Assembly: GCF_024195295.1 (NCBI RefSeq)
Contig: NZ_JAMFTH010000001.1
Location: forward strand, 496,001-560,000
Direction: 5' to 3'
DNA from: Gilvimarinus xylanilyticus
GTDB lineage: Bacteria > Pseudomonadota > Gammaproteobacteria > Pseudomonadales > Cellvibrionaceae
DNA: 64,000 nt
Within the stretch, counting starts at the first letter, position 1. Each line of letters starts with the position of its first letter. The position numbers and the translations under genes are program-made. The notes below the pieces were generated by a model that was not told where the DNA came from, did no database searches, and saw only the letters and a program-made list of their open reading frames with translations. Shown here piece after piece: positions 38,017-39,654 of the stretch.

Positions 38017-38107
38017 GGCGATACTTGCGTGAGCGTCTTGCTCACTTACCCCCTAAAATCGGTCTGCGTTCGGCTCGTTCTCAGGGGCCCCTGGGGGGGG
38101 GGGGGGG
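38017..38107. repeat. Intergenic repeat, copy A (ends in a 15-base G run)
   Basis: This stretch begins GGCGATACTTGCGTGAGCGT, carries CTGCGTTCGGCTCGTTCTCA and ends AGGGGCCCCTGG plus Gs. It matches 38316-38398 over about 85 bases. The inner stems differ by compensating changes: GTGAGC/GCTCAC here and CACGC/GCGTG there. That pattern points to a conserved RNA or DNA hairpin. Only non-coding sequence is involved. Confidence 0.75.
38093..38107. repeat. Run of 15 G
   Basis: Fifteen consecutive G bases as written, at the end of repeat copy A. The matching end of copy B has only five. Runs this long slip in replication and are also error-prone in sequencing, so the exact length is not to be trusted. 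Confidence 0.85.
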
Positions 38108-38315
38108 CAGGGTCGGATTTGTGGGTGAGCCCGAGCCTCAGGGAGTTCTTAATTCAGCTTTTTCCGTACTTCTCGCCCTCTGTCGCCGGGCGGGCGAAGC
38201 ACTTTTCTGCTTGTCCAGCAAAGTACTCAAAAGAGGACACCCCGGCGTCTGGCCCTTCGGGTTCCCTCGCTCCGGCCGATTTTTGTAGGCCGTATCGACG
38301 CGCCGTCCCAGGCGC

Positions 38316-38398
38316 GGCGATACTTGCGCACGCGTCCATGCGTGCTTACCCACAAAAATAGGCCTGCGCTCGGCTCAGTCGCAGGGGCCCCCTGGGGG
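38316..38398. repeat. Intergenic repeat, copy B
   Basis: It starts GGCGATACTTGCGCACGCGT, then CTGCGCTCGGCTCAGTCGCA, and ends AGGGGCCCCCTGGGGG. It is the second member of the pair described at 38017-38107, in the same orientation, about 300 bp further on. It ends about 37 bases before the disrupted tRNA copy. Confidence 0.75.
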
Positions 38399-38434: not shown

Positions 38435-38574
38435 TGGGCCTTAGCTCAGCTGGGAGAGCGCAACGCTGGCAGTGTTGAGGTTAGTGGGTCACAAATTCGC
38501 CGGGAGCGAATTTGCACGGCGGATGCCGCCCGGAGTGTGGGGCACATGGATGTGCCCCATGCATCCCGCTAGGC
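38435..38574 (+). pseudogene. tRNA-Ala(GGC) copy split in the T-loop by a 72-nt element
   Basis: Bases 38435-38490 align one to one with the first 56 bases of the intact tRNA-Ala at 38807, with few changes; the D arm and the GGC anticodon arm are kept. The match stops exactly after the T-loop TTC (here GTC). Then 72 foreign bases follow (38491-38562). The tRNA resumes with ATCCCGCTAGGC at 38563-38574 and then decays, with no CCA. The insert thus takes the place of G57 in standard numbering. The insert has three hairpins and recurs three more times downstream. Bases 38575-38764 hold nothing I recognise. Confidence 0.85.
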
Positions 38575-38764
38575 GGGGGTTCTATCAGTGCCTAGCGTGT
38601 TTCGACGTCCAATCTCGTGATTTATAGGTATGGGCTCAACAGTCTCAATACGGGCTAGATAAAGCTGATTCGCTTCCGAGGCCTTCGTGCTGCTGAAAAA
38701 TCAGGCAGATTGGGTAATGCCTGCTCGCTAAGACAAAAATCTATAAATTTCTGTATTCGAAGTG

Positions 38765-38793
38765 TTGACAGCTCCCCGTCTCGCGCCTATTAT
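38765..38793 (+). promoter_or_regulatory. Sigma-70 promoter of tRNA-Ala
   Basis: TTGACA at 38765-38770 and TATTAT at 38788-38793 with 17 nt between. A GC-rich discriminator (GCGCACC) follows, typical of stable-RNA promoters under stringent control. The tRNA begins 13 nt after the -10 box. The split copy at 38435 lacks such boxes. Confidence 0.85.
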
Positions 38794-38806: not shown

Positions 38807-38882
38807 GGGGCCTTAGCTCAGCTGGGAGAGCGCAACACTGGCAGTGTTGAGGTCAGCGGTTCGATCCCGCTAGGCTCCACCA
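38807..38882 (+). tRNA. alaW: tRNA-Ala(GGC)
   Basis: 76 nt with an encoded CCA end. The acceptor stem GGGGCCT/AGGCTCC has one G-T pair. The D arm is GCTCAGCTGGGAGAGC. The anticodon arm is CAACA-CTGGCAG-TGTTG with anticodon GGC at 38840-38842. The T arm is GCGGTTCGATCCCGC. All standard pairs are present. It has its own promoter and terminator. The gene symbol is the usual one for this isoacceptor in E. coli. Confidence 0.97.
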
Positions 38883-38891
38883 AACACAAAA

Positions 38892-38922
38892 CCCTCTGTC
38901 CGACAGGACAGGGGGTTTTTTT
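38892..38922 (+). terminator. Terminator of tRNA-Ala
   Basis: CCCTCTGTCC at 38892-38901 pairs with GGACAGGGGG at 38906-38915 (one G-T pair), followed by seven Ts. Related GGACAGGGGG-plus-T strings recur near 39270-39285, suggesting that tRNA-plus-terminator units were duplicated here. Confidence 0.92.
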
Positions 38923-38957
38923 GTTTGTGGGGCTTGTGGGTGAGACCGCTGACGCGC

Positions 38958-39046
38958 GGTTCACAAAATCGCCGGGAGCGAATTTGCACGGCGAACGCCG
39001 CCCGCAGGGTGGGGCACATGGACGTGCCCCATGCATCCCGCTAGGC
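38958..39046 (+). repeat. T-loop element, copy 2
   Basis: GGTTC at 38958-38962, then 72 bases (38963-39034) nearly identical to the insert in the split tRNA, then ATCCCGCTAGGC at 39035-39046. Stems are visible: TCGCCGGGAGCGA, CGGCGAACGCCG and TGGGGCAC-ATGGA-C-GTGCCCCA. The flanks are the tRNA-Ala T-arm halves, although the rest of a tRNA is not recognisable here. Confidence 0.8.
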
Positions 39047-39144
39047 GGACAGCCGAAGTCCCACACCTACTTACGAGGCTCCCACAAGTACGGGGGTTTT
39101 TTGTTTGTTCCGCTGAAAGATCAGCGGGAGGGAGGCTTAGCTCC

Positions 39145-39229
39145 GGTTCAGAAAATGGCAGGATAGCCATTTTGCACAGCGCATGCTGCCCGTAGGGCGA
39201 GGGCCTAGGATGGCCCGAGTGCATCCCGC
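39145..39229 (+). repeat. T-loop element, copy 3 (diverged, structure kept)
   Basis: GGTTC at 39145-39149, 73 bases, then ATCCCGC at 39223-39229. The stems have changed on both sides: AAAATGGC against GCCATTTT, CAGCGCATGCTG, and GGGCC-TAGGAT-GGCCC. Keeping the pairs while changing the bases shows selection on the folded form. A TTAGCTCC string just before it recalls the tRNA D arm. Confidence 0.75.
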
Positions 39230-39383
39230 GAATCGTCGAAGTCCCGCCGCTATGTGCGATAGCCTCTTCAGGACAGGGGGTTTTTGTTTGTGGGCTTTGT
39301 CGGGTGAGACCGCTGACGCCAGCGTGTTTGATGTGCATGGATGCGCAAATGTCGCGGGCGCAGGAAGCGCAGGAGCGACCTCT

Positions 39384-39507
39384 AATTCGCCGGGAGCGGA
39401 TTTGCACGGCAAACGCCGCCCGCAGGGTGGGGCGCAGGGACAAGGTGAATGCCTCTGAGAGGCAGAGAGGGCGGCCTGGGCCGAGTGCCCCGTGCATCCC
39501 GCTAGGC
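39384..39507 (+). repeat. T-loop element, copy 4 (extended third hairpin)
   Basis: The segment AATTCGCCGGGAGCGGATTT, a CACGGCAAACGCCGCC arm, then a third stem enlarged by about 40 bases (between GTGGGGC and GTGCCCC), closing with ATCCCGCTAGGC at 39496-39507. The GGTTC flank is lost. As in copies 2 and 3, a GTCGAAGTCC-like tail follows. Confidence 0.7.
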
Positions 39508-39654
39508 GGGCAGTCGAAGTCCTACGCATCTCAGTCTCTCGTATACTCCTGCACCGTCAGAGTGGGTCGGTCAGAAAACCGCGCCAGCCAACATTGCCTT
39601 CTCAGCCTTCGGCCGGCGGTTATGGGAGCTTCGAATTTAAGGTTTGCTCGGCCC

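Follow-up and report, generated by a model that had tools for sequence, protein, structure and literature searches.

tRNA-linked repeats (TLRs) were first described in 1978 and named in Escherichia coli, and they are stated in PMC8144298 to have no known function. According to that paper, strain K-12 carries 22 TLRs at ten loci, and the 3' end of a TLR equals the end of the upstream gene over 18 to 19 bp. Three of them, RrA, RrB and RrF, lie between the two terminators of the rRNA operons rrnA, rrnB and rrnD, are produced by read-through, and in vitro they bind both CsrA and Hfq; the complex of RrB with CsrA has a KD of about 100 nM, and binding is lost on mutating three GGA. The 19 TLRs of tRNA operons score below 0.01 as CsrA binders there, and solely the three rRNA-operon TLRs look like binders; deleting or overexpressing these three alters CsrA phenotypes modestly. 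A GGA in a hairpin loop is described as the known CsrA/RsmA site in both PMC8144298 and PMC4333381.

We analyzed a window of 64,000 nucleotides from Gilvimarinus xylanilyticus, to which all plain positions below refer, and report a feature that we read, with moderate confidence, as an RrB-type TLR joined to an additional, degenerate tRNA-Ala copy, TLRs of this kind most likely working as CsrA-sequestering read-through RNAs. On the plus strand, positions 38435–38490 hold a partial copy of the 5' part (nt 1–56) of tRNA-Ala, standing 372 nt before the intact tRNA-Ala(GGC) gene at 38807–38882 (plus strand; ARAGORN and Rfam). An earlier note on this DNA had described a one-to-one match over the first 56 bases; the partial copy exists, but 51 of the 56 bases are identical, with mismatches at 1, 31, 48, 51 and 54, so T54 itself is altered. 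The acceptor-end remainder TCCACCA is missing. From the T-loop of the copy a hairpin-rich stretch begins, as had been claimed, and the fold of 38484–38569 beats 199 of 200 dinucleotide shuffles (z −3.43).

The tRNA at 38807 is the sole call of ARAGORN and Rfam (gathering cut-off) here, and the partial copy is left uncalled. A search of the window found no promoter-like site before 38435–38490; before the intact gene it found TTGACA-17-TATTAT at 38765–38793 (plus strand; one site versus 0.5 expected in shuffles). Given the lack of a recognizable promoter and of a complete tRNA, we regard the copy as probably a pseudogene or relic. Together with its TLR it is present in five of eight genomes of the genus and absent in three, one of which has merely 464 nt of contig upstream; being common to five of the eight, it is therefore older than this strain. 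It would probably have arisen when the promoter, the tRNA 5' part and the TLR were duplicated in a forebear of those genus members in which it is found. The earlier note had suggested comparing relatives with and without the insert; a state without the 5' pseudo-copy does exist, in three of eight genomes. The arrangement of the focal tRNA-Ala copy is seen again in another genome, where the T-loop of a tRNA-Glu-like stretch (L314:1501–1589, minus strand) contains a TLR.

What had been taken for an insert followed by a resumed tRNA 3' end (ATCCCGCTAGGC) is one repeat unit. The 91 nt at 38486–38576 recur with 92% identity 472 nt downstream, at 38958–39048, with no 5' tRNA part in front. Because the repeat recurs in this form, what looked like an exact return to the tRNA at A58 is the tail of the repeat itself: the 12-nt ATCCCGCTAGGC is there, but as a part of the 91-nt repeat and not as an orphaned piece of tRNA. 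The idea of a lone element inserted site-specifically into one tRNA is not supported, since the unit has its own tRNA-like tail and further copies of it follow the intact tRNA-Ala as well as other tRNAs. The 72 nt do belong to a larger repeat, which the earlier note had considered as a way to be proved wrong, but the repeat is tRNA-related. The same note had set the sharp junction against decay, and this holds: the T-loop junction recurs at T-loops elsewhere, in some relatives in the opposite orientation, and simple decay of a tRNA was rejected because the repeat is found elsewhere. The feature is thus real and ordered, and the insertion reading is replaced by membership of the TLR family.

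All units of the window lie on the plus strand. The focal unit, copy 0, spans 38484–38569 in the fold and in our covariance model (94 bits, with this sequence in the training set). An outer helix P1 (38484–38488 with 38565–38569, from the fold) encloses hairpin 1 with the loop CGGGA (38492–38514), hairpin 2 (38518–38530) and hairpin 3 with a GGA in its loop (38535–38562), and the tRNA-Ala-like tail that contains ATCCCGCTAGGC occupies 38564–38576. Behind the intact tRNA-Ala come a terminator-like hairpin (38888–38919) and copy 1 (38956–39041; covariance model and repeat comparison), which comes after GAGACCGCTGACGCGCGGTTC, where the tRNA-Ala T-arm is copied once inverted and once directly, followed by TAGGCGG. 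After a second terminator-like hairpin (39075–39100) follow two further, diverged units that begin at 39143 and 39375. Copy 2 (39143–39229; covariance model) has the loops AGGATA in hairpin 1 and TAGGAT in hairpin 3 and is followed by a third terminator-like hairpin (39261–39282), and copy 3 (39375–39502; 54.2 bits) has an enlarged hairpin 3; the tail GCATCCCGCTAGGCGG is found again at 39485–39525. The window holds seven terminator-like sites versus 1.1 in shuffles, and the hairpins separate the tRNA from the units and the units from one another. Hairpin 1 as drawn is absent from the best fold of copy 1 with its flanks, and the fold of copy 2 is no better than 10 of 200 shuffles. Copies 1 to 3 lie 74 to 493 nt behind tRNA-Ala, the operon position of a TLR, and the focal copy lies inside the degenerate tRNA-Ala copy instead. 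The cognate tail in the window is 12 nt long, under the 18 to 19 bp given for E. coli.

Other GGA hairpins lie close by. A second module of two such hairpins (GATGTGCATGGATGCAC...GCGCATGGAGCGCAGGAGCGACC) is nested at T-loop junctions of the GGTTGA type, in the window at 39330–39381 (plus strand, seen in the sequence) at the left edge of copy 3, and in relatives at loci L165, L136, L122 and L181; GGA hairpins appear to have been inserted beside or within one another. On the minus strand at 38267–38371 there is a match to the TwoAYGGAY RNA (RF01731; 45 bits). The whole genome has 24 TwoAYGGAY matches at E ≤ 0.001, one of them 110 nt before the pseudo-copy; they form a dispersed GGA-hairpin repeat, and 14 control genomes have none. 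Near the TwoAYGGAY-like repeats, 38086–38110 contains over 12 consecutive G bases.

To place the units among the known families we used R1, a covariance model built from nine units of this genome. R1 recognizes the E. coli RrB, the TLR between T1 and T2 of rrnB, with 43.1 bits (E 1.4e-13 in 2452 bases), and the three E. coli tyrT TLRs weakly, with 11.7 to 14.3 bits (E 0.001–0.007), so that both sequence and structure resemble E. coli TLRs. Among 12 chance loci of the pattern search described below, 11 of them named as non-gammaproteobacterial or uncertain and one as Pseudomonas, the best R1 score was 19.1 bits. Our units share with RrA, RrB and RrF the order of hairpins and the two terminators (PMC8144298), the loops CGGGA in hairpin 1 and AGGA in hairpin 3 with CCCGNAGGG between them, and the placement of the hairpins inside the copied 3' end of the resident RNA; in our own reading of the RrB sequence, the copied 5S 3' end is also split, as GAGTAGG, hairpins and AACTGCCAGGCAT. 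They differ in that RrA, RrB and RrF follow 5S rRNA and are reported in PMC8144298 from Enterobacteriales only, whereas the present units stand behind tRNAs and tmRNA of other gammaproteobacteria, in the T-loop and with cognate tRNA tails.

The tyrT TLRs, or RtT RNA (RF00391), also stand behind a tRNA, with an inverted T-arm, a split T-arm and a tRNA-Tyr tail, but unlike our units they have no visible GGA loops. RtT had no match in the window at the gathering cut-off, and its two matches elsewhere in the genome scored 23.9 and 23.7 bits against a cut-off of 45; it exceeded the cut-off in five of 38 genomes of our relatives search, and its occurrence in Pasteurellaceae is already in print (PMC4986893). 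TwoAYGGAY RNAs, proposed CsrA binders (PMC4333381), have GGA-loop hairpins too but differ in sequence and spacing, and Rfam does not assign the TLR units there. With no Rfam call for the focal unit and RtT under its cut-off, both were dropped as its family. The CsrB/RsmZ-type sponge RNAs likewise have several GGA loops and a proposed role in sequestering CsrA/RsmA, but our units are tied to stable-RNA operons and form no stand-alone sRNA gene, and Rfam made no call to those families here. What is new is the occurrence, in many gammaproteobacteria that do not belong to the Enterobacteriales, of tRNA- and tmRNA-linked TLRs whose CsrA-type loops come in pairs. In the open-access papers searched, where PMC8144298 and the editorial PMC9245011 are what we found on tRNA-linked repeats, no GGA-type TLR from outside the Enterobacteriales was found in print.

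The units follow a common plan, in which a 3' end copied from the resident tRNA or tmRNA has the hairpins in its T-loop. Each has the 5' strand of the T-arm, ending in GGTTCA or GGTTCGA; hairpin 1 (loops such as CGGGA, CTGGA, CAGGA and AGGATA), hairpin 2, a short CCC-GNA-GGG and hairpin 3 (loops such as AGGAC, ATGGAC and AAGGAC) follow, and then come the 3' strand of the T-arm and a further part of the resident tRNA. Directly before the unit, the T-arm of the resident is often present in inverted form (for example, tRNA-Phe in L143 and tRNA-Asp in L123), and a terminator often comes after it. Among the 40 tRNA genes of this genome, units of this plan stand behind Ala, both Asp, Ser-GCT (two), Ser-GGA and Phe, and units turned round stand behind Leu-GAG (two) and Phe (one). 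At E below 1e-5, R1 has 18 matches in the genome, others lying behind a tmRNA-like end (C1:1884958), beside an rRNA operon (three, at the start of contig C7) and alone (C7:346542). Units behind tRNA-Met (two) and tRNA-Asn (two) have cognate pieces but other hairpins, without GGA loops. At L051:6678–7010, behind tRNA-Asn, two units with a cognate end carry a single different hairpin (CTGAATCAACGATTCAG) in place of the TLR core.

R1 found matches at E ≤ 0.01 in 28 of the 38 genomes of the relatives search (own genome included), with all eight of the genus among them. For the class, with the threshold at E ≤ 1e-6, 136 of 369 genomes had matches, representing 109 of 272 genera. A draw from the phylum gave 70 of 398 genomes, 39 of them outside the class and 33 of these in one family. 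A scan of named genomes for a sequence pattern returned at least 120 stretches; the pattern demands hairpin 1 together with GGTTC on one strand, so that antisense T-loop placements are invisible to it. The matches listed come, among others, from Dyella, Rhodanobacter, Dokdonella, Stenotrophomonas, Arsukibacterium, Alishewanella, Alteromonas, Thioalkalivibrio, Nitrococcus, Marinimicrobium, Gilvimarinus and one Serratia, and include chance matches, for example in Streptomyces and Verrucomicrobia. The pattern tables also took in loci from the model searches and hold at least one contig twice (L202 and L326).

Taking the best locus from each of 47 other genomes, 31 follow a same-strand tRNA or tmRNA at a distance of at most 600 nt, none is antisense, five are at contig edges and 11 have no tRNA or tmRNA found; these being the best-scoring loci, linkage may be higher among them than among weaker hits. 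Among the pattern matches listed, 86 of 135 (124 loci) are linked, and 83 linked and 48 unlinked matches of those listed have the 140 nt of following sequence needed to compare tails. When the tail was compared with the last 18 nt before CCA, the longest string shared by the 83 complete linked matches of those listed averaged 12.0 nt for the resident tRNA versus 5.6 for tRNAs of different amino acid specificity; the resident beat every other tRNA in 62 of them, and at distant loci in the list the cognate tail reached 16 of 18 nt. Other units of the present genome share 16 (Ser-GCT), 15 (Ser-GGA), 13 (Phe) and 8 to 10 (Asp) of the 18 nt compared with their residents. The 48 unlinked matches of those listed include some clear chance matches, yet 32 of them have a GGA-loop hairpin.

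Several observations would also fit a DNA element that is mainly mobile or copied, lodges at the 3' ends of tRNAs and has its flanks rebuilt from the resident gene, its hairpins serving movement as folded single-stranded DNA and CsrA binding being secondary; we consider this rather unlikely as the main explanation. The same insert core stands beside different resident tRNAs with cognate flanks, and the inverted T-arm copy upstream is cognate as well (string of 7.0 versus 4.7 nt, the resident being best in 28 of 83 among the matches listed). The 92 hits in the window's genome and its relatives give a less clear-cut picture than the 47 best loci and occur in both orientations: 43 are sense behind a tRNA or tmRNA, 15 of the 58 tRNA-proximal ones are antisense, and 34, some of which adjoin rRNA, have no tRNA or tmRNA within 600 nt upstream. 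The variable presence of the tRNA-Ala 5' copy in the genus agrees with movement, too. Reversed TLR cores stand behind tRNA-Leu, Gly, Phe and Cys (L068, L118, L132 and L155), with the junctions in or near the copied T-arm.

The conservation of the units speaks against such an element, as GGA loops and covarying stems outlast the borders of genus and family, beyond what a parasite needs unless the same features drive its movement. Also against it, neither an enzyme gene nor an event with donor and recipient came to light in the loci compared. In 52 sequences outside the training set, the model structure is paired in 90.9% of cells versus 68.4% in column shuffles, the alignment having been fitted to the model and favoring its structure; with the structure slid by one to three columns, at most 47.5% are paired. 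Cells changed on both sides number 220 versus 71.5 in shuffles, with none of 500 as high. Pairing reaches 99.0% in hairpin 1 and 97.3% in hairpin 3 and is weaker in the middle helices (79.9% of cells for model helix 3 and 73.7% for helix 4). Of the 52 sequences, 44 have a GGA in the hairpin 1 loop, 48 have one in the hairpin 3 loop and two have one in the hairpin 2 loop; both outer loops have it in 41 of 52 model hits and in 74 of the 92 hits in the window's genome and relatives; these counts are biased, as the model was trained on GGA units. The pattern scan allows a partly independent check because hairpin 3 is outside its definition, in which hairpin 1 alone is fixed: a GGA-loop hairpin follows in 58 of the 83 complete linked matches listed, versus a mean of 8.1 and a maximum of 15 in 100 shuffles, and among the matches listed GGA is the commonest of the 64 triplets there. 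The units thus have two or more sites with GGA in loops, as CsrA/RsmA-binding RNAs do; the fuller CsrA/RsmA consensus is ACANGGANGU.

Ordinary tandem duplication with gene conversion of tRNA 3' ends and terminators, functionless like slippage-prone repeats, would explain the cognate tails, the units without GGA loops and the tandem units with terminator-like hairpins about 185 nt apart behind tRNA-Ala. We hold it improbable in view of the strong covariation and the retained loops, and its pure form was rejected, since local duplication alone cannot put the same hairpin core behind different tRNAs. Insertion into the T-loop by a mini-element related to tyrosine integrases, or an island remnant, as the earlier note had proposed, is very improbable: the T-loop junction and a tyrosine-integrase-like island beside tRNA-Ala in the relative G003 (judged by eye from its sequence) agree with it, but it was rejected because the resumed 3' part is repeat sequence that occurs without a tRNA 5' part, the repeat at 38958–39048 largely refuting it, and because the island in the relative G002 ends in a 45-nt copy of tRNA nt 32–76. 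Longer elements at tRNA-Ala, which the note had suggested looking for, do exist as islands in both relatives, but the far end in G002 is no T-loop junction. Judged from the sequence beside the tRNA, these islands (L171 and L179 in G002; L168 in G003) lie between tRNA-Ala and its expected TLR site, and in G002 the copy of tRNA-Ala at the far end is followed by a terminator and a TLR.

For a TLR that acts as RNA, we favor as the most likely mechanism a read-through transcript that would sequester CsrA in step with stable-RNA transcription, since GGA loops are a known CsrA site and csrA is present in this genome. RNA polymerase would at times read through the terminator behind the tRNA, and the TLR RNA would be cut free, perhaps aided by its tRNA-like tail; its two GGA-loop hairpins may then bind a CsrA/RsmA dimer, and free CsrA would fall while stable-RNA transcription is high. 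The single csrA gene of the genome (C1:756287–756442) lies directly before tRNA-Ser-GCT and its two TLRs. A csrA-like ORF occurs in 16 of the 232 fetched loci L117–L348, the order with tRNA and TLR having been checked in this genome. At L048:588–780, 968–1057, 1141–1225 and 1372–1456, csrA, tRNA-Ser(GCT) and two TLRs follow one another, so that a repeat which may bind CsrA lies next to csrA.

Against this reading stand the units without GGA loops behind tRNA-Met and tRNA-Asn and, in PMC8144298, the modest effects in E. coli and the low scores of the 19 tRNA-operon TLRs. The antisense units count against CsrA sequestration as the sole role because their GGA loops would not be on the tRNA transcript. 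A broader proposal, which we put forward as possible but doubtful, is that TLRs are ancient, gammaproteobacteria-wide CsrA-binding RNAs that spread among tRNA, tmRNA and rRNA operons by a form of copying that rebuilds direct and inverted flanks from the resident gene, rewiring a global regulator to stable-RNA output.

In E. coli, the rRNA-operon TLRs alone look CsrA binding in the account of PMC8144298, and the tRNA- and tmRNA-linked TLRs of many other genera keep two GGA-loop hairpins and covarying stems. The cognate direct and inverted tRNA copies raise the question of how a unit is made. If the units bind CsrA, stable-RNA transcription would directly titrate a global post-transcriptional regulator and so act as a sensor of growth rate; if true, this would give a testable answer to the TLR puzzle known from E. 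coli since its first description.
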